DNA of 64,000 nt from Thauera linaloolentis 47Lol = DSM 12138. GTDB lineage: Bacteria; Pseudomonadota; Gammaproteobacteria; Burkholderiales; Rhodocyclaceae. Made by a program: the position numbers and the translations under genes. Below, one piece after another: positions 5,275-19,778 of this stretch. The stretch's first letter is position 1; each line of letters begins with the position of its first letter. Under the pieces are notes generated by a model, which had not been told where the DNA came from, did no database searches, and saw only the letters and a program-made list of their open reading frames with translations. The stretch lies in the NCBI RefSeq assembly GCF_000310205.1, contig NZ_AMXE01000011.1, forward strand, positions 1 through 64,000, given 5' to 3'.

Positions 5275-5530
5275 GTCCGGCCGCCCGTGCATTGACCGAT
5301 CGGCGCGAATGCAATAGGGCCGGCGGCCGGCCCGAATGTCCGAACGCGCCATAGGATTATTCCTATCCCGCCTCTCCCTTATTCCGGTCGTCGATATCAG
5401 GATTCGTCACCTGTCCATTGCCTGGCGCGCGGCGCAGAATTCACCTCGAGAACACCGGGTAATGGTGTTTGCATTGCAGGAAAGGGCGACGGAAGAAAAT
5501 GAATGCAGCTCTTCTTTTAGGAGAATCGAT
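5275..5530 (+). promoter_or_regulatory. nosZ upstream region
   Basis: This 256-base gap holds a 17-base GC hairpin (GGGCCGGC/GCCGGCCC, 5317-5333) after the hypothetical gene, with no T-run. It also holds a second copy of the palindrome at 5351-5366, and a strong ribosome-binding site (AGGAGA) before the nosZ ATG. Frames open across it but show no coding character. No canonical FNR box or clear -10/-35 pair is visible. Confidence 0.5.
5351..5366. promoter_or_regulatory. palindromic operator candidate, copy 2 (upstream of nosZ)
   Basis: ATAGGATTATTCCTAT has 6-bp perfect arms (ATAGGA/TCCTAT) and shares the core TAGGAWTATTCCTA with the site at 4581-4596. It lies about 165 bases before the nosZ start, far enough to activate a promoter around 5400. 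The regulator assignment is inference. Confidence 0.5.
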
Positions 5531-7813
5531 ATGAAAGGCCTGGCGATCAAGGCAACGGCGACGTTGCTGGCGACGGTGATCGGGGCGGGCGCGGCATGTG
5601 CCGCGGAATCTCTGCAGGATGTCGTGAAACGGCGCAATCTGACCCAGCAGGATCTGCTCGCTGCGGCGAAGACTTATACGCCCAGCGGGGGGCGGGATGA
5701 ATTCCTCGCCTTCAGCTCGGGCGGCCAGTCGGGGCAGATGCTGGTGTATGGCGTCCCGTCGATGCGGATCCTGAAATACATCGGCGTATTCACTCCGGAG
5801 CCGTGGCAGGGCTATGGCTATGACGAGGAATCCAAGAAGGTGCTCGCCGGCGGCCGTATCGACGGCAAGGACATCACGTGGGGCGATACCCACCACCCGG
5901 CGATTTCCGAGACCAATGGCGAATACGACGGCCAGTTCCTGTTCATCAACGACAAGTCGAACCCGCGCCTGGCGGTGCTCGATCTGCGCGATTTCGAGAC
6001 CAAGCAGATCGTCGTCAACCCGATCATGAAGTCGGAGCACGGCGGCGCCTTCGTCACGCCGAACACCGAGTACGTCATCGAGGCTTCGCAGTACGCCTCG
6101 CCGCTGGAGAACCAGAAGTTCCACCCGCTCGAAGAGTTCAACGAGAAATACCGCGGCGCGATCACCTACTGGAAGTTCGACCGCGAAGCGGGCCTGTTGA
6201 AGGCCGACCAGTCGTTCTCGCTCGAGCTTCCGCCGTATTCGCAGGACCTTTCCGACGCCGGCAAGCTGGGCTCGGACGGCTGGTCCTTCACCAACAGCTT
6301 CTGCACCGAACGCTATGTGGGCGGGATCGAGAAGGGGCGCCCGCCGTATGAGGCCGGCTGCTCCGCCAAGGACACCGACTACATGCACGTGATCAACTGG
6401 CGGAAGGCCGCGGAGATCGCAAAGGACGACAAGAACGTCAAGGTCATCAACGACCACCGGGTGATCCCGATGGAAGTGGCGATCCGCGAAGGCATCCTGT
6501 TCCTGATTCCCGAGCCGAAGAGCCCGCACGGCGTCGACGTCACGCCGGACGGCAAGTACATCGTGGTGGCCGGCAAGCTCGATACCCACGTGTCGGTGTA
6601 TTCCTTCGACAAGATCATGGCGGCGGTCAAGGCGCAGCGCTTCGAGTCCAAGGATCCGTACGGCATTCCCGTCATCGGCATGAAGGATGCGCTGCATACC
6701 CAGGTGCAACTGGGCCTCGGCCCCCTGCATACCCAGTTCGACTCGAAGCAGTGCATCGCCTACACCTCGCTCTACGTGGACAGCATGGTGGCGAAGTGGA
6801 ACTTCTGCGAAGGCAAGCTGCTGGACAAGCTGGCCATCCACTACAACATCGGCCACCTGATGACGATGGAGGGCGATACGACCAAGCCGAAGGGCAAGTA
6901 CCTGGTGGCGCTCAACAAGCTGTCGATCGACCGCTTCAACCCGGTCGGCCCGCTGCACCCGCAGAACCACCAGCTCATCGACATCAGCAACGACAAGATG
7001 CAGCTGCTCTATGACATGCCGCTGCCGCTCGGCGAGCCGCACTACGTGGTCGGGATCGACGCCAGCAAGCTCAAGCCCGCCGTGCGCTACAAGGTCGGCA
7101 CCAACAGCCGCACCGACGAGCAGCACCCAGGCAAGGTCCGCGCAGGCGAGGAGAAGGTCGTCCGCAACGGCAACAAGGTCGAGGTGTACGGCACGCTGAT
7201 CCGCTCGCACATCACGCCCGAAACCATCGAGGTCGAGCAGGGCGACGAGGTCACGATATTCCTCACGAACCTCGAGCGCGCCCAGGACGAGACCCACGGC
7301 TTCACCGTGTCGACCTACAACGTGCATGCGTCGGTCGAGCCGGGCAAGACCGTCTCGGTCAAGTTCACCGCCGACAAGGAAGGCGTGTATCCGTACTACT
7401 GCACCGAGTTCTGCTCCGCGCTCCACCTCGAGATGCAGGGCTACCTGCTGGTCAAGCCGAAGGGCTGGAAGCCGTCCGCGACCGCCACGCTGGCCGCCGC
7501 CAACTACACCGAGACCGACTACAAGAACACCTTGAAGAAGGTCGTGGATACGCAGGCGGTCATCGACCAGGTCGTCGGCTACATCACCTCGGTCAACTAC
7601 AAGGCCTACCCGGAAGTGGCGGCGCTGATGGAAGACGCCACCGACCAGCTCGGCAAGACCGCCGACGCCAAGGCCAAGCACGAGGCCGCCGCCGCCCGGC
7701 AGGACTGGGAGCAGGCGAACCTGTGGGCCGAGCAGGTATGGCAATACCAGGTCAAGGCGGCCGATATCGGCCTGCGCGCCAAGACCTTCCTGGAGCAGAA
7801 AGGCGCCAAGTGA
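5531..7813 (+). CDS. nosZ: nitrous-oxide reductase, clade II (Sec-dependent)
   Basis: A 760-residue periplasmic enzyme that reduces N2O to N2. The start follows AGGAGAATCGAT. The N-terminus (MKGLAIKATATLLATVIGAGAACA) is a Sec signal with no twin arginine, which is the mark of clade II enzymes. A beta-propeller with the CuZ histidine region (WGDTHHP and others) is followed by a cupredoxin domain. The CuA motif there is CTEFCSALHLEM (C624, C628, H632, M635). About 110 residues follow CuA; they carry no haem motif, unlike the cytochrome-fused NosZ of Wolinella. It leads an operon of maturation and electron-transfer genes. Confidence 0.97.
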   Translation: MKGLAIKATATLLATVIGAGAACAAESLQDVVKRRNLTQQDLLAAAKTYTPSGGRDEFLAFSSGGQSGQMLVYGVPSMRILKYIGVFTPEPWQGYGYDEESKKVLAGGRIDGKDITWGDTHHPAISETNGEYDGQFLFINDKSNPRLAVLDLRDFETKQIVVNPIMKSEHGGAFVTPNTEYVIEASQYASPLENQKFHPLEEFNEKYRGAITYWKFDREAGLLKADQSFSLELPPYSQDLSDAGKLGSDGWSFTNSFCTERYVGGIEKGRPPYEAGCSAKDTDYMHVINWRKAAEIAKDDKNVKVINDHRVIPMEVAIREGILFLIPEPKSPHGVDVTPDGKYIVVAGKLDTHVSVYSFDKIMAAVKAQRFESKDPYGIPVIGMKDALHTQVQLGLGPLHTQFDSKQCIAYTSLYVDSMVAKWNFCEGKLLDKLAIHYNIGHLMTMEGDTTKPKGKYLVALNKLSIDRFNPVGPLHPQNHQLIDISNDKMQLLYDMPLPLGEPHYVVGIDASKLKPAVRYKVGTNSRTDEQHPGKVRAGEEKVVRNGNKVEVYGTLIRSHITPETIEVEQGDEVTIFLTNLERAQDETHGFTVSTYNVHASVEPGKTVSVKFTADKEGVYPYYCTEFCSALHLEMQGYLLVKPKGWKPSATATLAAANYTETDYKNTLKKVVDTQAVIDQVVGYITSVNYKAYPEVAALMEDATDQLGKTADAKAKHEAAAARQDWEQANLWAEQVWQYQVKAADIGLRAKTFLEQKGAK

Positions 7814-7906: not shown

Positions 7907-8215
7907 ATGAAACCGATCGTTGCCCTGCTGCTCGCGGCCGTTGCATCCGCGCCGGCGCTTGCCGCTCCGGATGGCGCGAAGCTGTACATGGAAAAGACCT
8001 GTAACGCCTGCCACGGCGCCGATGCCAGGAAGGCGCTGCTGCCGAGCTATCCCAGGCTCGCCGGCCAGAACGCGGCCTACGCCGAGCAGCAGATGAAGGA
8101 CATCAAGAGCGGCGCGCGCGACAACGGCCAGACCGCAGCGATGAAGGGCGTCATGCATCTCGTCAACGACGAGGAGATCAAGGCGATCGCGACCTGGCTC
8201 GAAAGCCTGAAGTAA
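7907..8215 (+). CDS. nosC1: monohaem cytochrome c (NosC1-like)
   Basis: A 102-residue exported cytochrome c. A Sec signal (about residues 1-20) ends at ALA-AP, and the single haem site is CNACH (C32, C35, H36). A later Met (MKGVMHL) could be the axial ligand. It is followed at once by a dihaem cytochrome, the pair known in clade II nos clusters such as that of Wolinella, where NosC1 and NosC2 are proposed to carry electrons from the NosGH quinol side towards NosZ. The symbol is by position and size. Confidence 0.85.
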   Translation: MKPIVALLLAAVASAPALAAPDGAKLYMEKTCNACHGADARKALLPSYPRLAGQNAAYAEQQMKDIKSGARDNGQTAAMKGVMHLVNDEEIKAIATWLESLK

Positions 8216-8307: not shown

Positions 8308-9024
8308 ATGAAGACAAGAATTCTGCTCGCCGCCGTTCTCTCCGCAAGCGTCGCCTTCGCCGGGCCGCCCGCGCCGAAGAAGGAAGGCATCGAGGGCCAG
8401 GGCTACGTCTGGAACGCCCAGGAGGGCGAGAAGATCGAGGCGCTGAAGCTCAAGGGCGACGTCACGCGCGGCGAGGAAGCCTACGAGGTCTGCGGCGCCT
8501 GTCACCTGCCTTCCGGCGCCGGACGTCCGGACGGCACCTTCCCGCAGCTCGCCGGCCAGCACACGACCGTGCTGATCAAGCAGATGGCCGACATCCGCGC
8601 TGGCCTGCGCGACAACCCGACGATGTACCCGTTCGCCGCGACGCTGATCGACCCGCAGGAGCTGGCCGACGTCTCCGCCTACATCGAGAACCTGTGCATT
8701 CCGACCGACCACGGCAAGTACGAAGGCGCGGATGCCGCGCTGCAGGTCGCCAAGGGCAAGGACCTGTACGAGAAGCAGTGCAAGGAATGCCATGGCGGAA
8801 GCGGCGAGGGCGACAAGTCCAAGTTCTATCCGGTCATCGCCGGCCAGCACTACAAGTACCTGCTGCGCCAGATGACCGAGATCCGCGACGGGCACCGCCG
8901 CAATGCCAATCCCGACATGGTCAAGGTGATCAAGCCCTATACCGACGATCAGCTGGTGGCCATTTCGGCCTACCAGGCGAGCCTGAAGATGCCGGGCGCG
9001 ATGTGCGGCGACGGCAAGAAGTAG
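8308..9024 (+). CDS. nosC2: dihaem cytochrome c (NosC2-like, c4/c553 type)
   Basis: A 238-residue periplasmic dihaem cytochrome. A short signal ends near AFA-GP, and the haem sites are CGACH (C62-H66) and CKECH (C158-H162). Each sits in a repeated unit that continues with Q-LAGQH and a run like LIKQMADIRAG / LLRQMTEIRDG, typical of cytochrome c4-like duplications. It probably relays electrons between the membrane quinol dehydrogenase NosGH and NosZ. It lies between nosC1 and the NosB-like gene. Confidence 0.85.
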   Translation: MKTRILLAAVLSASVAFAGPPAPKKEGIEGQGYVWNAQEGEKIEALKLKGDVTRGEEAYEVCGACHLPSGAGRPDGTFPQLAGQHTTVLIKQMADIRAGLRDNPTMYPFAATLIDPQELADVSAYIENLCIPTDHGKYEGADAALQVAKGKDLYEKQCKECHGGSGEGDKSKFYPVIAGQHYKYLLRQMTEIRDGHRRNANPDMVKVIKPYTDDQLVAISAYQASLKMPGAMCGDGKK

Positions 9025-9044: not shown

Positions 9045-9070
9045 GCCCGGGTCCGTGGATGGACCCGGGC
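9045..9070 (+). other. 10-bp perfect hairpin after the dihaem cytochrome
   Basis: GCCCGGGTCC and GGACCCGGGC flank a GTGGAT loop, about 20 bases after the stop and 34 before the next start. There is no U-tract. Confidence 0.5.
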
Positions 9071-9103
9071 CGTCCCACCCCCTCCTTGCGACCGGAGCTC
9101 AGA

Positions 9104-10105
9104 ATGTCCGCAACACAAAGCAAGAACGGCCTGATTGCAAGCCTTGTGCTGGTGGCCCTCGTGGCGATGGTCGCCGCCTACTTCGCGCCGATCTGGTGGG
9201 TTTCGCTCACCGCGCCGAACTACCCCGAGGATGCCTTCCCGGACGGCATCCGCATCCACTTCCATTTCGACGGCGTACACAATGGCTGCACCACGCCGCC
9301 CAAGACCTCCCGCCTGGCCGCCGAGACCATGGCCGAGGACATGGGCGAGGGCACGGGGCGCTACAACCCCATCCTCTCCGAGCAGACCACGCTGACGGGC
9401 AAGGCGACGGCGCTTGATTGCGTTCACGAGATGAACACGATCAACCACTACGTCGGCATGTACCCGATCGCCACCGGCGGCCCCGTCGAGACCCGGCTTT
9501 CGAAGTTCTTCATCGGCTTCTTCGCGGTGATGCTGGCCGGGTTCGCGGTGCGCAACCGGAAGGCCCGACTCGGTATCCTCGGCCTGGGCTTCGGCGCGCT
9601 CGCGGTGTGGATGATCGTCGACCAGTTCGTGCTGGGCAGGCTCGCCGCCCATGTCGACCACTACGTCAAGGAGTCGGCCACCTTCTTCAACGAACCGGAG
9701 CGCATCGCGGCCTGGGGCAGCAATGTGGCGATGATCTCCAAGGCCGCCATCTTCGGCCTGATCGCGGCCATGGCGGTGGTGGTCGCGGGCGTCGCGAAGT
9801 TCCGCTCCTTCGAGCTGCTGCTCGCGCTGATCCCCGCGCTGCTGCCGCTGTTCTACCTGATCGAGTATTCGGGCTGGCTGTGGTTCTTCGGCCACAACCT
9901 GCACCCGTGGGGCGCGTTCACGGTCAAGCCCTTCATGCCCACCGTGTTCGGCGAGGGCAAGGTGGCCCAGTTTTCCACCTTCTCCTATCCGCACTGGGGC
10001 TACGCCCTGCTGGTGGTGGTCTTCCTGTGCCTGATGCTCGCCCTGCTGCTGCGCCGCAAGCAACTGCGCGAGGAACTGCCGCGGGGCGATGCCCGGCAAG
10101 GATGA
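9104..10105 (+). CDS. nosB: NosB-like multi-pass membrane protein
   Basis: About 333 residues; the start ATG has GGAG upstream. One N-terminal membrane helix (about 10-32) precedes a soluble stretch rich in His and Cys (HFHFDGVHNGC near 52-62, DCVHEMNTINHYVGM near 105-119). Some five more hydrophobic segments occupy residues 135 to 325. Clade II nos loci carry a membrane protein, NosB, of unknown role; I assign this by size, topology and position. The conserved His/Cys loop could bind metal or haem (inference). Confidence 0.7.
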   Translation: MSATQSKNGLIASLVLVALVAMVAAYFAPIWWVSLTAPNYPEDAFPDGIRIHFHFDGVHNGCTTPPKTSRLAAETMAEDMGEGTGRYNPILSEQTTLTGKATALDCVHEMNTINHYVGMYPIATGGPVETRLSKFFIGFFAVMLAGFAVRNRKARLGILGLGFGALAVWMIVDQFVLGRLAAHVDHYVKESATFFNEPERIAAWGSNVAMISKAAIFGLIAAMAVVVAGVAKFRSFELLLALIPALLPLFYLIEYSGWLWFFGHNLHPWGAFTVKPFMPTVFGEGKVAQFSTFSYPHWGYALLVVVFLCLMLALLLRRKQLREELPRGDARQG

Positions 10106-11512
10106 ATGGCCGTGAGCACGTTCGTGAGCACCCTTCGCCGGCTGGCATGGCTCGCCGCGGCGGCGGCCCTGGCGCTGCATGCCGCCACGGCGCGCGCGGC
10201 CGGCGAGGACGAGGAGCACGGCGCCGGGCCGGGGGCCGGGGCCGACTTCTCCACCGCGCCGAGGGTCGACGTGCACAAGCCCGTCGAGCTGATCCCGCTC
10301 TACCTGCGCGCCAAGCGCATCCACGGCCTGCAGCCCTTCCAGGAACTCGTCGACAAGGCGCCCGAGGGCAGCGTGCTCGCGGTGCCCGCCGGACACTACG
10401 CCGGCCCGGTGCACCTGAAGAAGCGGCTGAGCATCGAGGGCCAGGGCGAGGTCGTGATCGACGGCGGCGACAAGGGCACGGTGTTCGTCGTCGAGGCCAA
10501 TGGCGCGGTCCTGCGCAACCTGACGATCACCGGCTCGGGCGAATCCCACGACTCCGACGATACCTGCCTGAACATCCGCGGCCACGGTAACCTGATCGAG
10601 AAGCTGAAGATTGCCGACTGCCTGTTCGGCATCGACCTCAAGCAGGCCGACCGCAACATCGTGCGCGGCAACACGGTGCGCTCGAAGGATTTCGAGCTCG
10701 GCGTGCGCGGCGACGGCATCCGGCTGTGGTACAGCAATGACAACCTGATCGAGGACAACCTCGTCACCGACACGCGCGACATGGTGGCGTGGTATTCGCA
10801 CCGCAACATCTACCGCGGCAACGAAGGGCGGCGCAGCCGCTACTCGATCCACTTCATGTTCGCCAACGACAACGTCGTCGAGAACAACCGCTTCTACGAC
10901 AACGCGGTCGGCGTGTACTTCATGTACATGGAGGGCGGCGTGGCGCGCAACAACGTCATCTCCCACGCCACCGGTGCCACCGGCATGGGGTTGGGCTTCA
11001 AGGAGTCCTCGGACATCCTGATCGAGAACAACGAGGTCATCTACTGCGCCGTCGGCGTGGGCTCGGACCTCTCGCCCTTCCAGCCCGACACCACGATCCG
11101 CTTCGTCGGCAACCGCTTCGCTTTCAACGGCATCGCCATCCAGCTTACCAGCGAGCTGGGCGGCAACGAACTGCTCGGCAACACCTTCGAGGGCAACCTG
11201 ACCGACGTGTTCCAGGGCGGCCGGGGTGGGGGCGTGAAGAACCGGTGGGTGGGCAACTACTTCGATACCTACCAGGGCTTCGACCGCGACGGCGACGGCC
11301 ATGGCGACACCCCGCACGAAGACTATGCCTATGCCGACCGGCTCTGGATGGAAATTCCCAACGCGCGCTTCTTCAAGGCGTCGCCCGTCCTCGAACTGCT
11401 CGATTTTCTCGAACGCCTCGCGCCGTTCTCGGCCCCGGGCCTCCAGGCCAGGGACGAAGCGCCCCTGTACGCCAGGCCGGAGCGGCCGATCAAAGGAAGG
11501 ACCCATGAGTGA
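10106..11512 (+). CDS. nosD: periplasmic copper-processing protein NosD
   Basis: A 468-residue exported right-handed beta-helix protein needed for the copper sites of NosZ. A signal peptide spans about residues 1-32 (ending ATARA-AG), then come many PbH1/CASH-type repeats (NLIEDNLV, NVVENNRFYDNAVGVYF, ILIENNEVIYCAVG). Length suits the family. The ATG follows the upstream stop directly (TGAATG), and the gene overlaps nosG by 8 bases. NosD acts with the ABC pair NosFY encoded downstream. Confidence 0.95.
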   Translation: MAVSTFVSTLRRLAWLAAAAALALHAATARAAGEDEEHGAGPGAGADFSTAPRVDVHKPVELIPLYLRAKRIHGLQPFQELVDKAPEGSVLAVPAGHYAGPVHLKKRLSIEGQGEVVIDGGDKGTVFVVEANGAVLRNLTITGSGESHDSDDTCLNIRGHGNLIEKLKIADCLFGIDLKQADRNIVRGNTVRSKDFELGVRGDGIRLWYSNDNLIEDNLVTDTRDMVAWYSHRNIYRGNEGRRSRYSIHFMFANDNVVENNRFYDNAVGVYFMYMEGGVARNNVISHATGATGMGLGFKESSDILIENNEVIYCAVGVGSDLSPFQPDTTIRFVGNRFAFNGIAIQLTSELGGNELLGNTFEGNLTDVFQGGRGGGVKNRWVGNYFDTYQGFDRDGDGHGDTPHEDYAYADRLWMEIPNARFFKASPVLELLDFLERLAPFSAPGLQARDEAPLYARPERPIKGRTHE

Positions 11513-12374
11513 AACGAAAAAACCGCCCGCCGCGCCCGCCGCTTCCGCCAAGGGAAGCGTGCCGGTCTCGCGCGAGCGCCAGCGCCAGGGCCGGCGCAAG
11601 ACCCTGCGCACCCTGCTGCTGACCGGCGGTGTGCTGGGCGCGGGCCTGTCGGGCTATCTGCCGCTGGTCTATGCGCGCACCAGCCGGCTGCGGCCGCCCG
11701 GCGCGCTGGATGAAAAGGCCTTCCTGCAGTCCTGCATCAAATGCGGGCAGTGCGTGCAGGTCTGCCCGGTCGACGCGATCAAGCTCGCCGATCTGGTGGA
11801 CGGCTTCGGCGTCGGCACGCCGTACATCGACGCCCGCGCACAGGCCTGTGATTTTTCCTGTGATGCGGTGCAGTGCGTCCTCGCCTGTCCGACCGGCTCG
11901 CTGACCTACCACAAGCCCGCCTTCCTGCCGGTGCGCGAGGGGGCGGCGCTGCCGCAGAAGCCGACGCTGATCGCGAAGATGAACGACCCCGAGCCCACGC
12001 TCAACCTCACCGAGCGCATGGGCGTGGCGCGCCTCGCCCGGCCCGAGTCCTGTCTCGCGATGAGGGGCGAGGGTTTCAAGGGCCAGGCGCGCGGCGCCGG
12101 CTTCGAGGGCCGGATGCGCTATGCCGCCGTGGACCGCTGGAACCCCATCCGGGTGGCGGACCACCCCTACGACCTGCCGCTGTGCGACCTGTGCATGCGC
12201 GAATGCCCGATTGCCGGCGCGATCTCGCTGGAGAAGTTCACCGGCGCCGACGGCAAGGTGCGCGCGCGGCCGGTCGTGCACGAGAACTGCGTCGGCTGCG
12301 GCGTCTGCGAGATGATCTGCCCGACCGAAGCCGCCTCGATCACCATCGTCCCGCGCGAGGTGTGGCAATCATGA
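11505..12374 (+). CDS. nosG: ferredoxin-type quinol dehydrogenase subunit NosG (NapG-like)
   Basis: A 289-residue iron-sulfur protein anchored by one hydrophobic helix (about residues 33-55). It has four cysteine clusters: CIKCGQCVQVCP near residue 77, then CDFSCDAVQCVLACP, CDLCMRECP, and CVGCGVCEMICP at the C-terminal end. This is the NapG/NosG pattern. With NosH it is thought to oxidise menaquinol and pass electrons to periplasmic cytochromes. The start has AAAGGAAGG upstream and overlaps the nosD stop; it is coupled to nosH by ATGA. Confidence 0.93.
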   Translation: MSETKKPPAAPAASAKGSVPVSRERQRQGRRKTLRTLLLTGGVLGAGLSGYLPLVYARTSRLRPPGALDEKAFLQSCIKCGQCVQVCPVDAIKLADLVDGFGVGTPYIDARAQACDFSCDAVQCVLACPTGSLTYHKPAFLPVREGAALPQKPTLIAKMNDPEPTLNLTERMGVARLARPESCLAMRGEGFKGQARGAGFEGRMRYAAVDRWNPIRVADHPYDLPLCDLCMRECPIAGAISLEKFTGADGKVRARPVVHENCVGCGVCEMICPTEAASITIVPREVWQS

Positions 12375-13348
12375 GCAAGCTGCTGACACGCCGCTACATC
12401 GACCAGATCAAGGTGATGTTCGGCAAGGAACCCGCGAAGCCCACGGAGATTTCTCCCGCGGCGCAGAAGATCCACTTCTACAAGAAGAACAACCGCGACG
12501 AGATCGCCGAACTCAAGCACCAACGCGCGCACGAGAAGCCGAGCCATAAATGGCGCAACCGGCGCTGGGCGACGCTGATCCTGGCCAACCTGCTGTTTGT
12601 GGCCTCGTACTGGCTCGACATCCAGGTCCTCGAGGGCGCGTTGACCGCTTCGCGCTTCGTCGGCTTCCACATGGCCGACCTCAACTCGGCGCTGCAGGTG
12701 ATGCTGGCGCACAAGCACATCATCACCAACCTGCTGATCGGCACCGGCACGGTGCTGATGCTGTGGGCGCTGCTCGGCGGGCGCACCTTCTGTTCCTGGG
12801 TCTGCCCCTACCACCTGCTGGCGGAGTGGGCGGAGAAGGCGCACCTCTACCTGGCGAAGAAGAAGCTCGTCACCGACCAGCCGATCGACCGCCGCCTGCG
12901 CACCGTGTTCTGGATCGTGTTCGCGCTGCTCGCGGTGCTGACCGGCTATACCGTGTTCGAGTCGATCTCGCCCACCGGCATCCTGTCCCGCGCGCTGATC
13001 TACGGCGCCGGCCTATCGGTCCTGTGGGTGGCGGCGCTGCTCGTGTTCGAGATTTTCTTCTCGCGCCGCGCCTGGTGTCGCTACGCCTGCCCCATCGGCC
13101 TGACCTACGGCGTCGTCGGCATCCTGTCGCCCGTCCGCATCAAGTACACGCTCGAAGGCTGCTTCCACGAAGGCGACTGCCGCAAGGTCTGCCTCGTCCC
13201 GCACGTGCTCGACACCGTCATCAAGGGCCGGGCCATCGAGCCCGAGGTGCCGCTCGGCCCCGATTGCACGCGCTGCGGGCTGTGCGTGGACGCGTGCCCG
13301 ACGGGCTCGCTGAGCTACGACGTCAAAGGGCTGTCGAGGCTGCTGTGA
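12371..13348 (+). CDS. nosH: membrane quinol dehydrogenase subunit NosH (NapH-like)
   Basis: A 325-residue membrane iron-sulfur protein. Four or so helices lie between residues about 60 and 235. Two CX3CP motifs (FCSWVCPYH and WCRYACPIG) are typical of NapH/NosH/RdxA-like proteins. Two ferredoxin sites near the C-terminus are GCFHEGDCRKVC and DCTRCGLCVDACP. It is the likely menaquinol-oxidising partner of NosG. It overlaps nosG by 4 bases and stands 42 bases before nosF. Confidence 0.93.
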   Translation: MSKLLTRRYIDQIKVMFGKEPAKPTEISPAAQKIHFYKKNNRDEIAELKHQRAHEKPSHKWRNRRWATLILANLLFVASYWLDIQVLEGALTASRFVGFHMADLNSALQVMLAHKHIITNLLIGTGTVLMLWALLGGRTFCSWVCPYHLLAEWAEKAHLYLAKKKLVTDQPIDRRLRTVFWIVFALLAVLTGYTVFESISPTGILSRALIYGAGLSVLWVAALLVFEIFFSRRAWCRYACPIGLTYGVVGILSPVRIKYTLEGCFHEGDCRKVCLVPHVLDTVIKGRAIEPEVPLGPDCTRCGLCVDACPTGSLSYDVKGLSRLL

Positions 13349-13390
13349 GCGTTCCGTCCATCCACCCCGCGGCATGACCGGAGGCAAGCC

Positions 13391-14242
13391 ATGATCCGAC
13401 TGGAAAACGTCACGAAAACCTTTCGCGGCGCGCGCGTGCTCGACGGCATCTCGCTGGAGATCGGGCTCGGCGAGCGCATCGCGCTGATCGGCTCGAACGG
13501 CGCCGGCAAGACCACGCTGATCCGCTGCCTGCTCGGCGAATACGTCCATGACGGCCTGATCACCATCGACGGCCTCGATCCGCGCCGGGAACGCGCGCGC
13601 GTGCTCGGCCAGATTGGCTTCGTGCCGCAGCTGCCGCCGCCGCTCAGGATGCCGGTCGGCCGCCTGATCGACTTCGCCGCCAGCCTGTGCGGCACGGCGC
13701 CCGGCCGCATCGAGGATATCGCCGAGCGCCTGGGCCTGCACGTCGACGCGATCCGCTCGCGGCCGTTCGTGCGCCTGTCCGGCGGCATGAAGCAGAAGCT
13801 GCTCATCGCGCTCGCGCTCGGCCGCGATGCGCGGCTGCTGTTCATGGACGAGCCGGCGGCGAACCTCGACCCCGAGGCGCGCAAGATCTTCTTCGAACTG
13901 CTCGCCGGGCATGCGGACCATGCCGCGATGCTCATTTCCAGCCATCGCCTGGACGAGGTGGCGTCGCTCGTCAACCGGGTGGTGGAGATGGACATGGGGC
14001 GCGTGGTGCTCGACGACGCCCTCGCCGGGAGCGTCGAGCTGGGCAGCGTGCTCGCCTGCCGCATCGTGCTGAAGCACTTCGAGCCGGCCTTCGCCAAGAC
14101 GCTCGACGGCTGGCGCTTCGCCGCCGATGCCGAGCGCCTGGTGTGGCGGGGCGCGGTCGCGGCGCCCGACCGGCTGCGCTTTCTCGGTGCGGTGGCGCGC
14201 TACGCCGGCCTGTTGAGCCATTTTTCGCTGGGAGAACACTGA
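13391..14242 (+). CDS. nosF: ABC transporter ATPase NosF
   Basis: A 283-residue ATPase with Walker A GSNGAGKTT (about residues 37-45), Q-loop, signature LSGGMKQK, Walker B LLFMDEP and H-loop SSHRLDE. NosF works with the permease NosY and periplasmic NosD in supplying or maturing the NosZ copper-sulfide centre. The next gene starts 2 bases after its stop. Confidence 0.95.
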   Translation: MIRLENVTKTFRGARVLDGISLEIGLGERIALIGSNGAGKTTLIRCLLGEYVHDGLITIDGLDPRRERARVLGQIGFVPQLPPPLRMPVGRLIDFAASLCGTAPGRIEDIAERLGLHVDAIRSRPFVRLSGGMKQKLLIALALGRDARLLFMDEPAANLDPEARKIFFELLAGHADHAAMLISSHRLDEVASLVNRVVEMDMGRVVLDDALAGSVELGSVLACRIVLKHFEPAFAKTLDGWRFAADAERLVWRGAVAAPDRLRFLGAVARYAGLLSHFSLGEH

Positions 14243-14243
14243 C

Positions 14244-14771
14244 ATGTGCGATGCGCACTCCTCTCTCCACGGCGCCGCGCCCCGGCTGCGGCGCCGCGCC
14301 TTCCTCGCGCGGGCGGGCGTGGCCCCGCTGCTGCTCAGCCCGCTTGCCGGCCTGCTCGCCGCCTGCGGCAAGGGCGGCTGGCCCGACGGCATGGCCCCGA
14401 TCCGCTGGGACCGCGATACCTGCATCCGCTGCAAGATGGTGATCTCCGACCGCCGCTTCGCCGCCGAACTGCGCGGCGGCCCCGCCGGCACCGTGTTCAA
14501 GTTCGACGACATCGGCTGCCTGGTCTTCTGGCTGCAGGAGCAAGCCGAGGCCCATCCGTGGATGGCGGCCGCCGACACCCGCATGTGGGTCGCCGACTTC
14601 GCCAGCCCGAGCCGCGAGGCGATGCGCTGGCTCGATCCGCGGCAGGCGCGCTACGTCGCGCGCAGCTCGCCGATGGGCTACAACTTCGCCGCGCTGGCCG
14701 AGGCCGAGGCCGAGGCGGATGCCGTCGATTACGGGCAGATGCGGCAGCGCACGCTGTCGAGGGGACGATGA
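14244..14771 (+). CDS. nosL: copper-binding lipoprotein NosL
   Basis: A 175-residue outer-envelope lipoprotein and Cu(I) chaperone for NosZ. An arginine-rich start is followed by a hydrophobic stretch and lipobox LLAAC (C41). The NosL copper motif CIRCKM (C60, C63, M65) follows. It sits between nosF and nosY, so nosF and nosY are not adjacent here, whereas in the Wolinella locus nosL comes last. Its stop overlaps the nosY start region (ATGATGA). Confidence 0.92.
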   Translation: MCDAHSSLHGAAPRLRRRAFLARAGVAPLLLSPLAGLLAACGKGGWPDGMAPIRWDRDTCIRCKMVISDRRFAAELRGGPAGTVFKFDDIGCLVFWLQEQAEAHPWMAAADTRMWVADFASPSREAMRWLDPRQARYVARSSPMGYNFAALAEAEAEADAVDYGQMRQRTLSRGR

Positions 14772-15598
14772 TGAAACAACTGTTCCTCACCGCCCGGCTC
14801 GACATCGCCGAATCGCTGCGCGCGCGCTGGTTCCTGATCTACACGCTGGTGTTCGGCGGCATCATCGTGCTGCTCTTCGTCTTCGGCCTGACCGAGTCGC
14901 GCGTGCTGGGCTTCATCGGCCTGTCGCGCCTGCTGGTCACTTACATCCAGCTCACGATGGCGATCCTGCCGATCTTCGTCCTCATCACCACGGTGCGCTC
15001 GGTGGCCGGAGACCGCGAGGCGGGCGTCTTCGAGTACCTGCTGGCCCTGCCGGTGCCGCTCGGCGCCTGGTTCTGGGGCAAGATCATCGGGCGCTACGCG
15101 GTGATCTTCGCGCCGGTCGTCCTCGCCATGGGCGGCGCGGTGCTGTGGGGGCAGTTCGACGGCATCGAGATCCCGTGGGCGATGTTCGGCTACTACACTG
15201 CGCTGATCGCGGTGATGGCACTGTGCTTCCTCGGGATCGGCATGCTGCTCTCGTCCGTCGCCCGCAGCACCGACATGGCCCAGGGTGCGGCCTTCCTGGT
15301 GTGGCTCGCGCTGCTGCTCTTTCTCGACCTGATCCTGCTGGGCGTCATGATCCAGGGGAGGATCGACCCCGAACTGGCGGTGGCGATTGCGCTGCTGAAC
15401 CCGCTGCAGGTGTTCCGCACGGCCGCGCTCGCCATGTTCGACCCGCAGCTCATCGTGCTCGGGCCGGCCGCCTACGTGATTCTCGACATCTTCGGCGAGG
15501 CGGGCTTCCGCGTCTTCGCCATCGCCTATCCGGCGGCGCTGGGCATCGGCTCGGCGCTGCTCGGCTACCATTTCTTCCGCAGGGGGGACCTACTGTGA
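14768..15598 (+). CDS. nosY: ABC transporter permease NosY
   Basis: A 276-residue integral membrane protein with about six helices, belonging to the ABC-2 permease type. It starts MMKQ at overlapping ATGs 14768 and 14771; the second has the better distance to GAGGGG. It partners NosF. Its stop is shared with the GTG start of the thioredoxin gene (GTGA), so the operon continues without a gap. Confidence 0.92.
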   Translation: MMKQLFLTARLDIAESLRARWFLIYTLVFGGIIVLLFVFGLTESRVLGFIGLSRLLVTYIQLTMAILPIFVLITTVRSVAGDREAGVFEYLLALPVPLGAWFWGKIIGRYAVIFAPVVLAMGGAVLWGQFDGIEIPWAMFGYYTALIAVMALCFLGIGMLLSSVARSTDMAQGAAFLVWLALLLFLDLILLGVMIQGRIDPELAVAIALLNPLQVFRTAALAMFDPQLIVLGPAAYVILDIFGEAGFRVFAIAYPAALGIGSALLGYHFFRRGDLL

Positions 15599-16089
15599 AA
15601 CGGCTTGCCAGACGCTTCCTTCTTCCATTGCTCATGGCGTGCAGCGCGGCCGCCGCCGCGGCCGACGCGGATGCGCTGTTCGCGGCCGCGCTGACGGGCA
15701 CCGATGGCCGGCCGGCCGCGCTTGCCGAATACCGGGGCAAGCCGCTGCTGGTCAATTTCTGGGCGCGCTGGTGCCCGCCGTGCCGCAGCGAGATGCCCGA
15801 GCTGGCGGCTCTTCAGGCCGAATACGGCGCGCAGGGGCTCACCGTGCTGGGCATTGCCATCGACGACGATCCGGTTGCGGTGAGGGAGTTCCTGGCCGCC
15901 TACGACATCGGCTATCCGGTCGCCCTGGGGCGGGACACGGGCATCGGGTTGATGCAGTCGCTGGGCAACGCGTCCGCCGGGCTTCCGTTCACGCTGGCGA
16001 TCGACCGCGAGGGCGGGGTGCTCCTGCGCAAGCTCGGCGCATTCGGCAAGGACGACTTCCACGGCGTCGCGCAGGAGCTGATGCGATGA
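15595..16089 (+). CDS. TlpA/ResA-like periplasmic thioredoxin
   Basis: A 164-residue protein beginning with GTG, which overlaps the nosY stop. A signal sequence of about 23 residues precedes a thioredoxin fold with active site WARWCPPCRSEMPE (C60, C63). The usual TlpA-type strand order and cis-Pro region (AGLPFTLAIDREG) follow. Such proteins reduce cysteines of apo-metalloproteins outside the cytoplasm. Sitting in the nos operon, it may keep the NosL or CuA cysteines, or the cytochrome CxxCH thiols, reduced (inference). Confidence 0.85.
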   Translation: MKRLARRFLLPLLMACSAAAAAADADALFAAALTGTDGRPAALAEYRGKPLLVNFWARWCPPCRSEMPELAALQAEYGAQGLTVLGIAIDDDPVAVREFLAAYDIGYPVALGRDTGIGLMQSLGNASAGLPFTLAIDREGGVLLRKLGAFGKDDFHGVAQELMR

Positions 16090-16811
16090 CGCCGGAGACG
16101 CCGGCTTCGGCGAGCTTCGGCGGGACGGCGGTTTCCCCCGGCGAGCGGCGCAGGCGCATCCGCGGCGTCTTCGAGGCGATCGCGCCGCGCTACGACCTGA
16201 TGAACGACCTGATGAGCTTCGGCATCCACCGCCTGTGGAAGCGCACGCTCGCCAGGCGCTGCGAGGACTACCGCGGGATCGTCGTCGATCTGGCCGGCGG
16301 CACCGGCGACATGGCCGCGCGGCTGTGCGCGGAGGGGCGCACGGTGATCGTGTGCGATCCCTCGTGGGCGATGATGTCCGTGGGCCGCCGGCGCGGCATC
16401 CCCGCCGTGTGGAGCGCCGGCGAAGCCGAACGCCTGCCTTTCGCCTCCGCCAGCGTGGACCTCCTGACCCTTTCCTTCGGCCTGCGCAATACCACCGAAA
16501 TCGGCGCCGCGCTTGCCGAGATCCACCGCGTGCTCAAGCCCGGCGGCTGCTTCGCCTGCCTGGAGTTCTCACGCCCGGCGTGGTGGCTCGCGCCGGTGTA
16601 CGACCGCTATTCGCGCCTCGTCATCCCCCGGCTCGGCGCCGCCGTGGCCGGCAGGCCCGAGGCTTATACTTACCTGATCGAATCCATCCGGCGCTTCCCC
16701 GATCAGCAGGCCCTGGCCGCGACCTTGTCGGCGACCGGCTTCCAGTCCGTCCACTGGGAAAACCTTTCTTTCGGCATCGCATGCATACACTACGCGAGAC
16801 GTTCCCCCTGA
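16086..16811 (+). CDS. UbiE/MenG-type quinone C-methyltransferase
   Basis: A 241-residue SAM-dependent methyltransferase. RIRGVFEAIAPRYDLMNDLMSFGIHRLWKR is the UbiE/MenG signature start, with motif I VVDLAGGTGD and a later LTLSFGLRN and LEFSRPA. It would methylate demethylmenaquinone (or the ubiquinone precursor). Next to menA and in the nos operon, the menaquinone role is favoured. It overlaps the thioredoxin gene by ATGA. A second, general ubiE elsewhere in the genome is likely but cannot be seen here. Confidence 0.88.
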   Translation: MTPETPASASFGGTAVSPGERRRRIRGVFEAIAPRYDLMNDLMSFGIHRLWKRTLARRCEDYRGIVVDLAGGTGDMAARLCAEGRTVIVCDPSWAMMSVGRRRGIPAVWSAGEAERLPFASASVDLLTLSFGLRNTTEIGAALAEIHRVLKPGGCFACLEFSRPAWWLAPVYDRYSRLVIPRLGAAVAGRPEAYTYLIESIRRFPDQQALAATLSATGFQSVHWENLSFGIACIHYARRSP

Positions 16812-17719
16812 GCCGTTCCGCGCCGTCGCGCGGCATGCGCGTCGCCCGCGTCTGGTGGACGGCCATCCGGCCGCGCACGCTCGGCATCGCGATCGCGCCG
16901 GTGGCGGTCGGGACCGCCCTCGCCGTGGCCGATGGCGCACGGATCGACTGGCTCGTGCTGCTGGCGACACTGGCGAGCGCGCTCCTGATCCAGATCGGCA
17001 CCAATCTCCACAACGACGCGGCCGATTTCGAACGCGGCACGGACGGTCCGCGCCGCGTCGGGCCGCTACGCGTGACTGCCGCCGGGTTGGCGAGCCCGGC
17101 CGCGGTCAAGCGCGGCGCCGTTCTCGCCTTCGCCGCCGCGCTCGCCCTCGGCGGCTATCTGGTGGCGGTGGGCGGCGGCGTCATCCTGGTCATCGGCTGC
17201 GCCTCCTTGCTGGCGGGCTGGGCCTATTCGGGCGGGCCGAGGCCGATTTCGCACACGCCGCTTGGAGAGTCGTTCGTGCTGTTCTTCTTCGGCGTGCTCG
17301 CGGTGTGCGGCAGCCACTGGCTGCAGGCGCGGGCGTTCTCCCCGCTCGGGGTGGCGGCGGGGATCGCGGTCGGCGCGCCCTTTGCCGCCGTCTTGCTGGT
17401 GAACAACTTCCGCGACCTGGAAACCGATCTGCTGAGCGGGCGGCGGACCCTGGCCGCCCTGCTCGGTCGCGCCGGCTGCATGCGGGCCTATGTGTTGCTC
17501 GTCCTGCTGCCGCTGCCGCTGCTCGGCTCCATCGCGCTTGCCGGCCGCCCCGGCGTGCTGCTGGGCCTGCTCGCGATGCCGGCCTTCGCGCGCCTGGCGG
17601 TCCGTTTCCGGGCCGCTTCCGGCCAGGGGTTCAATGCCGTGCTGGCCGGCACGGCATGCCAGGGCAGCTGGCTGGGGCTGGCGATGGCTGCCGGCATCCT
17701 GTCCGCGCACCTGCTCTAG
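16781..17719 (+). CDS. menA: 1,4-dihydroxy-2-naphthoate polyprenyltransferase
   Basis: About 312 residues from this ATG (31-base overlap with the methyltransferase); a start at 16835 would give 294. It is a membrane prenyltransferase of the UbiA superfamily. The MenA-specific motif is GTNLHNDAADFERGTD followed by RRVGPLR, and the second aspartate motif is NNFRDLETDLLSGRRT. It joins the prenyl chain to DHNA to form demethylmenaquinone. Its place behind nosGH, which use menaquinol in clade II systems, suggests dedicated quinone supply. The other men genes are not in this window. Confidence 0.9.
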   Translation: MHTLRETFPLSRSAPSRGMRVARVWWTAIRPRTLGIAIAPVAVGTALAVADGARIDWLVLLATLASALLIQIGTNLHNDAADFERGTDGPRRVGPLRVTAAGLASPAAVKRGAVLAFAAALALGGYLVAVGGGVILVIGCASLLAGWAYSGGPRPISHTPLGESFVLFFFGVLAVCGSHWLQARAFSPLGVAAGIAVGAPFAAVLLVNNFRDLETDLLSGRRTLAALLGRAGCMRAYVLLVLLPLPLLGSIALAGRPGVLLGLLAMPAFARLAVRFRAASGQGFNAVLAGTACQGSWLGLAMAAGILSAHLL

Positions 17720-17733
17720 CGGACGCCGCCGGC

Positions 17734-18606
17734 ATGCTGGCCGACGTGCTGCTGCCCGCTGCGCTGGCGTTCATCATGTTCTCGGTCGGCCTCTCGCTGG
17801 AGGCGGCGGATTTCCGCCACGTCTTCGCGCGCCCGGCGGTCCTGGCCGCCGCACTGGCCGGGCAACTGGTGCTGATGCCGCTGGCGGCGTTCGCCGTGGC
17901 CCGGCTGGCGGGGCTGCCGGGCGAGCTTGCGGTCGGGCTGATGATTCTCGCCGCCTGTCCCGGCGGGGCGAGCTCGGCCTTCCTGACCCGGCTCGCGCGC
18001 GGCAACATCGCGCTCTCGCTGACGGTCACCGTGATCAGCAGCCTTGCAGCGATCGCGACCTTTCCGCTGCTGCTCAAGTTGGTGTTCAGCCATGCGGCGA
18101 GCGGCGCCTTCGCCGACGGCATACAGCGCCTGGGTGCCCTGCCGATGGAGAGGCTGGTGGGCAGCGTGCTGGCGATCACCACGCTGCCCACCGCGCTCGG
18201 CGTGGCTGTGCGCCACCGCGCGGGGCGGGGTGGTGGATGGCGCGCCGAGCGGATCGTCGGCCAGGTGGCGCTGGTGTTCTTCGCCGCCATCGTGCTGGGG
18301 ACCTTTCTCGCGCACCGGCAGGCCATCGTGTCGAGCCTGCCCGAGGTCGGGCCCGCGGCGATGCTGCTCAACCTGCTCGCGATGGCGGGCGGCTACGCGC
18401 TCGTCGCGCTGGCCGGCGGGCATCGACGCGACTCGGTGGCGGCGGCGATGGAGTGCGGGCTGCAGAACGTCGGCCTGGCGATCTTCGTCGCCGTTTCCCT
18501 GTTGCGGCAGCCTCTGATGGCGGCCCCCGGCATCGTCTATGCCCTGGTGATGAATGCCGGCGCATTCGCCCTGATCCTCCTGTCGCGCAAGCATCCGGGC
18601 CGATAG
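17734..18606 (+). CDS. BASS-family (bile acid:sodium symporter-like) transporter
   Basis: A 290-residue protein with about nine to ten hydrophobic helices and the family hallmark motifs ACPGGASSAFLTRLARGNIALS and MECGLQNVGLAIFVA. It is probably a Na+-coupled uptake carrier for an organic anion. It starts 14 bases after menA and is the last gene of the run. The substrate cannot be read from sequence; a link with menaquinone precursors would be speculation. Confidence 0.8.
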   Translation: MLADVLLPAALAFIMFSVGLSLEAADFRHVFARPAVLAAALAGQLVLMPLAAFAVARLAGLPGELAVGLMILAACPGGASSAFLTRLARGNIALSLTVTVISSLAAIATFPLLLKLVFSHAASGAFADGIQRLGALPMERLVGSVLAITTLPTALGVAVRHRAGRGGGWRAERIVGQVALVFFAAIVLGTFLAHRQAIVSSLPEVGPAAMLLNLLAMAGGYALVALAGGHRRDSVAAAMECGLQNVGLAIFVAVSLLRQPLMAAPGIVYALVMNAGAFALILLSRKHPGR

Positions 18607-18878
18607 CCCGCCGGCGGCGTATGCCGCATGGCGTCGAGCGATCCGCAACAAGCGGATACAATCACGGCGCCCGGAAAAGCAAGAATGCGCCGGAAGACAC
18701 ATGCACGGAACAGGATTCGATCATGCTGCGGGGCGTTCATCCCGGCGGGCGCTCGGCGGGGATCGAAATGGCCGCGGCGTGGGTCGAAGGGGCAGCAGGG
18801 CGAGGCCGGCGCGGCTGGCCGCGCCCGGGCACGAAGCGCGCATGCGTCTTGCGCGTGATTTCCAGACGAAGAGGAACC
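18607..18878. other. intergenic region before rapZ
   Basis: These 272 bases hold short open frames without coding features, and no clear T-tailed terminator. A GAAGAGGAA ribosome-binding site stands in front of rapZ. I see nothing else in it. Confidence 0.4.
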
Positions 18879-19778
18879 ATGCAGATCGTACTCATCAGCG
18901 GCTTGTCGGGATCGGGCAAGAGCATCGCGCTCAATGTCCTGGAGGATGCCGGCTACTACGTTGTCGACAACCTGCCGGCTGCGTTGCTGCCGCAATTGGT
19001 GACGCATCTGCGCGGTGCGGGCTGGATGCGGGTGGCGGTGGCGGTCGATATGCGCTCGGGGGCGAGCATCGCGGCGCTGCCGAGCCAACTGGAAGTGCTG
19101 CGCGAGACGGTGTCCGATCTTCGCTTCATTTTTCTCGAGGCGCGCGATGAGGCACTGATCGCGCGTTTTTCCGAAACCCGCCGCCGCCATCCGCTGGCGG
19201 GCGGCGAAGTCACGGTGGAGGAGGCGATCCAGCGCGAGCGCGACGCGCTGGCGAGCATCGCCGAACTGGCCCACCGCATCGATACCAGCGACCTGCATCC
19301 GAACACGCTGCGCGCGTGGGTGAAGGATTTCGTCCATGTCGACGAGAGCGAGGGGCTGACGCTGATGTTCGAGTCCTTCGGCTTCAAGTACGGCATTCCG
19401 CTCGACGCCGATCTCGTGTTCGACGTCCGCTGCCTGCCCAACCCTTATTACGATCCGCGCCTGCGCCCATTGACCGGCTGTGACGAGCCGGTGAAGGAAT
19501 TCCTGCGCAAGATTCCGGAGGTCGGCCGCATGGCCGAGGATATCCGCCGCTTTATCGCCAATTGGCTGCCGTCCTACGTGCGCGACAACCGCAGCTACCT
19601 GACGGTGGCGATCGGGTGTACCGGCGGCCAGCACCGCTCGGTGTACCTCGTGGAGTGGCTGGCGGAGCGCTTCCGCGACCAGGCCAGCGTGATCGTCCGT
19701 CATCGGTCGTCGGCGCGGCGGGCTGCCGACCGGGGGGCGGCGCAGGTGCATGCGCCGGTGGAAGACAAGCAGCCGTGA
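18879..19778 (+). CDS. rapZ: RNase adapter protein RapZ
   Basis: A 299-residue P-loop protein (YvcJ/RapZ family). Walker A is GLSGSGKS at residues 8-15, followed by the family run VLEDAGYYVVDNLP. The C-terminal domain has SFGFKYGIP, DVRCLPNPYY and IGCTGGQHRSVY. In enterobacteria it guides RNase E to the GlmZ sRNA and senses glucosamine-6-phosphate; in betaproteobacteria the partners are less known. It overlaps the next gene by GTGA. Confidence 0.95.
   Translation: MQIVLISGLSGSGKSIALNVLEDAGYYVVDNLPAALLPQLVTHLRGAGWMRVAVAVDMRSGASIAALPSQLEVLRETVSDLRFIFLEARDEALIARFSETRRRHPLAGGEVTVEEAIQRERDALASIAELAHRIDTSDLHPNTLRAWVKDFVHVDESEGLTLMFESFGFKYGIPLDADLVFDVRCLPNPYYDPRLRPLTGCDEPVKEFLRKIPEVGRMAEDIRRFIANWLPSYVRDNRSYLTVAIGCTGGQHRSVYLVEWLAERFRDQASVIVRHRSSARRAADRGAAQVHAPVEDKQP

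Follow-up and report, generated by a model that had tools for sequence, protein, structure and literature searches.

The stretch of the Thauera linaloolentis 47Lol (DSM 12138) genome analyzed here (contig NZ_AMXE01000011.1, positions 1 to 64,000; hereafter, the window) includes a nos operon of clade II for the reduction of nitrous oxide (N2O), which continues via a thioredoxin-like gene into ubiE and menA. This continuation had been noticed in an earlier reading of the letters alone (the sequence-only reading), which omitted the next gene. The latter encodes a transporter of the bile acid:sodium symporter (BASS) family and fills the place of missing men genes. We propose that ubiE, menA, and the BASS gene probably form a menaquinone-salvage module, whereby 1,4-dihydroxy-2-naphthoate (DHNA) would be imported, menaquinone finished by MenA and UbiE, and the menaquinol used by NosGH. 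The three genes of the putative module are as follows.

16086..16811, + strand: ubiE/menG, demethylmenaquinone methyltransferase, 241 amino acids (TIGR01934, 243 bits; cut-off, 158)
16781..17719 (alternative start, 16835), + strand: menA, DHNA polyprenyltransferase (TIGR00751, 158 bits; cut-off, 102; Pfam UbiA, 86 bits; cut-off, 34)
17734..18606, + strand: BASS-family transporter, predicted DHNA importer, starting 14 bases after menA (PF01758, 120 bits; cut-off, 24)

The two menaquinone genes lie where the sequence-only reading had placed them (16086-17719), and by their profile matches they encode true MenA- and UbiE-type proteins, although the narrower equivalog cut-offs of PRK06080 (MenA) and PRK00216 (UbiE) were not reached. 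MenA contains N-x-x-N-D and N-N-x-R-D stretches, which we take to resemble the Asp-rich motifs of the UbiA superfamily; four genes of this superfamily, including menA, are present in the genome. The prenyltransferase also falls within MenA by descent, sharing one starred clade with the MenA of Men-pathway genomes. Three junctions show the 4-base overlaps described in the sequence-only reading (nosL/nosY, 14768-14771; nosY/redoxin, 15595-15598; redoxin/ubiE, 16086-16089), whereas ubiE and menA either overlap by 31 bases (menA start at 16781) or are separated by a 23-base gap (start at 16835).

Judged by profile searches, the genome of the window (220 contigs; 4.2 Mb; 99.99% complete) has no known route to DHNA, the ring that MenA prenylates. 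The best matches to MenD (87 bits; cut-off, 244) and MenB (150 bits; cut-off, 343) were at paralogue level, and MqnA/MqnD (PF02621) had no match in this genome, with the control matching in 4 of 14 named genomes. The late enzymes are therefore present without DHNA synthesis, and the upstream pathway on which the sequence-only reading had staked its proposal was not found. Its "last two steps of synthesis", partly supported, are better put as the last two steps after precursor salvage. Despite the missing synthesis, ubiE and menA look maintained rather than decayed, and none of the MenA or BASS matches listed for the family contains an internal stop codon.

To place this truncated pathway among relatives, 297 genomes (mostly drafts, one per species) were drawn from the larger GTDB family of the window. 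MenA was over the cut-off in 89, 80 of which were carried on; the nine left out were 59 to 85% complete, and two of 80 to 83% were kept. MenD passed its cut-off in 39 of the 80 (304 to 450 bits; matches listed at E up to 1e-30); MenB did so in these 39 and additionally in G309, which gives a Men pathway in 40 genomes, while PF02621 was over its cut-off in none. A men-associated BASS subfamily occurred in 26 of the 80 (326 to 440 bits; next paralogues among the matches listed, at most 176), i.e., in 26 of 40 genomes without the Men pathway versus 0 of 40 with it (Fisher p = 6e-11). The BASS gene lies within 3 kb of menA in 22 of these 26 genomes, window included; in the others, the menA contig ends (G153) or BASS is in the nos operon and menA elsewhere (G343, G290, and G304). 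Three genera (g62, g20, and g66) each hold both the BASS and the Men state.

A scan of named genome contigs uncovered 124 relatives of MenA, the best 80 of which were kept as loci, and the genomes behind 50 of these 80 served as a second sample that partly comprises the same records as the family survey. MenD was over the cut-off in 9 of the 50, as was MenB in the same 9, and BASS adjoins menA in 37 of 41 MenD-negative but only 1 of 9 MenD-positive genomes (L051, a genuine exception). Across both samples, BASS and the Men pathway exclude each other almost totally. Two of the four MenD-negative loci lacking an adjoining BASS gene end at menA (L021 and L025), in a third (L045) one contig of the genome opens with a piece of MenD, and in L057 no BASS gene adjoins menA. 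Sequence divergence as a reason for overlooking MenD was rejected, since over-cut-off matches in the second sample scored 386 to 429 bits, with the next best at 89, and MenB splits the genomes alike. The futalosine route was rejected as well; PF02621 was over the cut-off in 0 of 51 and 0 of 80 genomes, with three weak matches of 20 to 21 bits in each set. Nor were MenB-like matches of 311 to 320 bits (G001, G024, G036, G248, G270, G234, G194, and G156; to judge by identical coordinates, one genome seems to stand behind two handles in some cases) counted as MenB, being under the cut-off. Six of the eight genomes lack MenD, and in G194 and G156 the match occurs beside a true MenB; these matches may be 2-ketocyclohexanecarboxyl-CoA hydrolases.

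The operon upstream of the module was assigned to clade II from a Sec-type NosZ accompanied by NosD, G, H, F, L, and Y, and its genes are as follows.

5336..7813, + strand: nosZ, clade II (Sec-type) nitrous oxide reductase (TIGR04246, 907 bits; cut-off, 625); the real start may be downstream of the open reading frame (ORF) start
7907..8215, + strand: small c-type cytochrome-like ORF with a CNACH sequence
8308..9024, + strand: c-type cytochrome with two domains (Pfam Cytochrom_C, two stretches)
9059..10105, + strand: NosB-like membrane protein, without a family match and named from its position, which is conserved in relatives
10106..11512, + strand: nosD (TIGR04247, 371 bits; cut-off, 300)
11571..12374, + strand: nosG-type ferredoxin protein, NapG/MauM-like (PRK09476 NapG, 143 bits, under the cut-off of 269); extent from conservation in relatives
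12503..13348, + strand: nosH-type quinol dehydrogenase, NapH/MauN-like (TIGR02163, 235 bits; cut-off, 213)
13391..14242, + strand: nosF, ABC ATPase (Pfam ABC_tran)
14244..14771, + strand: nosL (PF05573, 26.5 bits; cut-off, 24)
14768..15598, + strand: nosY, ABC permease (PF12679), with a 4-base overlap with nosL
15595..16089, + strand: TlpA/ResA-like thioredoxin protein, or redoxin (Pfam Redoxin; TlpA-type matches under the cut-off)

In a consensus scan, neither a sigma-70-like site (13300-19400) nor a terminator-like site on the plus strand (end of nosY to 19400) was detected. The closest known counterpart is the clade II nos operon with NosGH of the Wolinella type. The window shares the content and order of that type (nosZ-cytochrome-B-D-G-H-F-L-Y); its operon then differs in running into redoxin-ubiE-menA-BASS, and that of relatives into redoxin-ubiE-menA plus men genes.

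Comparison of gene order in relatives, as the sequence-only reading had advised, revealed that nosY-redoxin-ubiE-menA-BASS recurs in many Rhodocyclales and Rhodoferax loci, and that relatives of Magnetospirillum show nosY-ubiE-menA-BASS with no redoxin between. Pseudothauera rhizosphaerae and P. nasutitermitis (L008 and L009) have nos-ubiE-menA-BASS, with MenD not over its cut-off. An order found in so many genomes is not a chance arrangement. At eight further loci (L031, L046, L071, L186, L191, L206, L208, and L209), all without BASS, the nos operon extends past menA into menB-C-E-F-D or menF-D-B-C-E, with no MenH match seen there; we judged L046/L206 and L071/L191 to be one record twice each, from identical coordinates. 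Twenty genomes, counting the window, have menA within 6 kb of nosY: 10 with BASS after menA (about 0.9 kb apart in G281), 10 with the Men pathway, and none with both or neither. Without the window, the count is 19 of 79 other genomes (9 BASS and 10 Men pathway). Of the nos-linked Men genomes, all but G100 (L189/L258) have men genes after menA (9 of 10). One operon slot in relatives holds either the BASS importer, as we name it from its predicted role, or the DHNA-making menB-C-E-F-D. The coupling of quinone supply to N2O respiration envisaged in the sequence-only reading is thus likely as a conserved link, given that some relatives have menB, C, E, F, and D in this place of the nos operon, but fails as synthesis in the window's genome, which has no MenD, MenB, or MqnA/D over the cut-off.

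The genus g62 separates the transporter from menA. Three of its genomes without the Men pathway (G343, G290, and G304) carry the BASS gene within the nos operon, behind nosY-redoxin (L169-L171), and menA elsewhere (L142-L144). In Men-positive G272, G251, and G162, the nos operon stops at redoxin, followed by more than 5 kb without BASS (L240, L243, and L244), and the BASS subfamily is absent genome-wide. BASS therefore marks missing DHNA synthesis even when not beside menA, and the exclusion is independent of menA-BASS linkage. The possibility that BASS merely tracks nos was rejected by stratifying the counts on clade II NosZ, which was over the cut-off in 54 of the 80 MenA genomes. BASS occurs in 20 of 25 Men-negative versus 0 of 29 Men-positive genomes of this stratum (p = 1.7e-10) and in 6 of 15 versus 0 of 11 among the other 26 (p = 0.02).

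The transporter has the PF01758 domain and the BASS fold, with BASS structures as its top Foldseek matches. It scored 170 bits on the NCBIfam model bass (TIGR00841), under the cut-off of 326, and hence lies within the Pfam family and outside the narrower subfamily. Its AlphaFold model (predicted local distance difference test, 85.7) is nearest to ASBT_NM with pantoate (8oyg; template modelling score, 0.85). Glu260, Gln264, Asn265, and Asn295 of ASBT_NM have invariant equivalents (E240, Q244, N245, and N274) in 18 of 18 men-BASS rows, the first two presumably as sodium ligands. The fold and these four residues are shared with the BASS carriers of pantoate and bile acids (ASBT_NM and PanS), although the protein scored only 106 bits on the PanS model (cut-off, 400). 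Differences from ASBT_NM concern His294, aligned with a Met invariant in the 18 men-BASS rows; Thr112, aligned with Val in the men-BASS profile consensus; and the Ser114-Asn115 pair, kept as such in 0 of 18 rows. In ASBT_NM, as reported, the pantoate carboxylate contacts the main-chain nitrogens of Thr112 and Ala113; Asn265, His294, and Asn295 are close to the pantoate hydroxyls; and sodium is bound by Ser114 and Asn115 (PMC10645422). The pocket predicted by the alignment fits a carboxylate carrier with an altered, less polar site and perhaps altered sodium coupling; this would suit an aromatic acid and does not identify the substrate. The same source describes BASS proteins as transporters of bile acids and of organic acids of small size (PMC10645422), in keeping with DHNA, an aromatic acid, as the predicted substrate. 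Set against four paralogues, the men-BASS proteins cluster together as a single group (support, 100), in an alignment whose paralogue rows are only about 40% filled. Plasmid searches for BASS and MenA returned only matches of less than 60% identity.

MenA phylogenies were built from 80 rows and from 88 rows with other families added, leaving out of the latter the long-branch or divergent G166, G186, G196, G234, G111, G161, G247, G330 (Men-positive), G328, and G177. The clade shared by the window's MenA with that of Men-pathway genomes appears in both trees, and the main MenA clade of the 80-row tree contains 71 rows (39 Men, 26 BASS, and 6 neither). BASS and Men rows interleave in both trees, in places within a genus, which argues for one MenA substrate, DHNA, in both states. 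Restricted to BASS and Men rows, the 80- and 88-row trees need seven and six state changes, respectively.

Collectively, these findings suggest the following scheme. The cell would make no DHNA; DHNA released by other microbes would be taken in by the BASS protein, which we predict to work in this direction on this substrate; MenA would add the polyprenyl tail; UbiE would methylate the ring to yield what we expect to be menaquinone; and NosGH would oxidize the menaquinol, passing electrons to c-type cytochromes and on to NosZ. Where only MenA and UbiE remain, supply of the pathway intermediate DHNA is sufficient. With somewhat less assurance, we also lean toward the broader proposal that DHNA here gains its first assigned importer, this BASS protein, and that in the Rhodocyclaceae, Rhodoferax, and Magnetospirillum groups many N2O reducers of clade II run menaquinone-dependent N2O respiration on a precursor from other microbes, with one slot switching between making and importing it.

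Among other explanations, a third pathway of a new kind could make DHNA or an isomer, with BASS tied to it, e.g., by moving an intermediate in or out. Retention of MenA where neither known pathway is over the cut-off would agree with such a route, which profile searches could overlook. However, BASS occupies the place of menBCEFD in relatives, one transporter cannot stand in for five enzymes unless the product is external, and no other gene was common to nos-linked and unlinked BASS loci by eye, in a cluster table that mis-frames some genes. We therefore regard a third pathway as unlikely. Slightly less credible still is that MenA and UbiE of the module use another imported aromatic acid to build a different quinone. 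UbiE relatives do serve other quinones, as indicated by the 192 bits of the window's UbiE on the NCBIfam methyl-plastoquinone methyltransferase model MpqE (under the cut-off of 335), yet the MenA of Men-positive and BASS genomes interleave and the window's MenA passed TIGR00751. We give an equally small chance to BASS being an unrelated neighbor, the MenD/MenB exclusion reflecting shared ancestry, and menA-ubiE being a decaying remnant of a lost pathway. The scarcity of independent contrasts and the MenA genomes with neither BASS nor pathway, both detailed below, would fit that case. Conversely, the module spans beta- to alphaproteobacteria, the MenA and BASS matches listed are free of internal stops, and BASS in g62 marks pathway absence at a distance from menA.

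Several observations weigh against menaquinone salvage at the nos operon as we propose it. MenA occurs with neither BASS nor the Men pathway in 14 of the 80 genomes; completeness is 95% or more in 8 of these (G111, G247, G161, G328, G177, G148, G092, and G166). While 8 of the 14 fall outside the main MenA clade, G148, G092, G177, G222, G213, and G080 are inside it, and by eye, with no library scan of neighbors, no substitute transporter was seen near menA in G092, G148, G080, G222, and G177. One alphaproteobacterial genome (L051/G035, a Rhodospirillaceae metagenome-assembled genome) has both MenD over the cut-off and a men-type BASS, as the only such genome examined. Well-supported branches of the 88-row tree force only three BASS/Men changes. 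Independent-pair tests on the MenA trees gave 0 concordant pairs, a mean of 3.7 (80 rows) or 2.6 (88 rows) opposite pairs, and 4.3 to 4.4 without a BASS difference, so that the direction is right and the median p values of 0.125 and 0.25 (range, 0.125 to 1) are not significant; with so few pairs, p is unable to reach 0.05. The Fisher values, in turn, make the evidence look stronger than it is, since related genomes enter the counts as if independent. The NosZ stratum is impure, as seven genomes (G058, G116, G261, G320, G164, G209, and G310) have nosF-Y beside menA and no NosZ match, their nosZ probably missing from the assembly, and the NosZ search matched 0 of 14 control genomes. Many BASS-menA modules are not beside nos (Denitromonas, Thauera, and some Rhodoferax), and 208 of the 297 family genomes lack MenA over the cut-off; clade II nos may thus run on ubiquinone elsewhere and perhaps does not need menaquinone generally. 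Finally, loss of the Ser114-Asn115 pair implies that ion coupling of men-BASS may differ from that of ASBT_NM.

Precursor salvage of this kind has precedents. As described in the parts of the sources consulted, Lactiplantibacillus plantarum has a truncated menaquinone pathway fed by exogenous DHNA, whose uptake route was called yet to be identified (PMC10746273), and a reference title tells of group B Streptococcus cross-fed with DHNA by Lactococcus (PMC12421875). Absence of DHNA synthesis, external DHNA, and retention of the late enzymes appear common to these systems and the window's genome. In contrast, the former are Gram-positive fermenters, whereas the module belongs to Proteobacteria, has a predicted specific transporter, and is tied to N2O respiration. 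Compared with the classical men operon of E. coli (menFDHBCE), MenA is common to both, and relatives of the window also have MenF, D, B, C, and E homologues, attached to nos; the window's genome has no MenD or MenB over the cut-off. Among open-licence PMC papers, we found no report of a DHNA transporter or of menA in a nos operon, and the quinol/quinone passages of PMC11906303 and PMC10390337 do not mention the latter. Cross-feeding on DHNA has been demonstrated in lactic acid bacteria (PMC10746273); with the BASS protein, a testable transporter is now named. If the precursor is borrowed, N2O removal in sludge, soil, and sediment would depend on nearby DHNA producers, the removal of this greenhouse gas could be tied to what other microbes release, and pure cultures without DHNA would understate N2O-reducing capacity.

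Loci of the module away from nos vary in composition. Six in Thauera (L010, L013, L015, L027, L035, and L036) have menA-BASS with no ubiE or nos match nearby, where a housekeeping UbiE could methylate. The complete ubiE-menA-BASS module lies outside the nos operon in Rhodoferax (L026, L030, L032, and L033) and in Denitromonas and relatives (L040, L052, and L062), near a cytochrome-type gene in the latter three. In G339 (L148 and L254), the clade II nos operon is on a different contig from menA-BASS. The menA genes of G222, G148, and G092 (L134, L136, and L137), without Men pathway or BASS, lie near a cytochrome cd1 nitrite reductase-like gene as named by eye, a possible tie of menA to another denitrification step.

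Additional nos-type genes were also found. Several loci (L151, L153, L154, L155, L163, and L166) have a divergent second NosD-like gene after BASS, which in L039 and L041 is about 41% identical to the NosD of the window and is itself followed in some loci by genes that by eye are SoxY-like and flavocytochrome-like. Nine genomes (G069, G130, G079, G138, G343, G290, G251, G156, and G073) carry two clade II nosZ genes of equal or near-equal score a few kilobases apart, which looks like recent tandem duplication. The window's genome encodes a second NosZ-like protein (contig C20, 6161-7900, minus strand) that scored 460 bits on the clade II model, under the cut-off of 625, which suggests that a clade I type nosZ is present as well.

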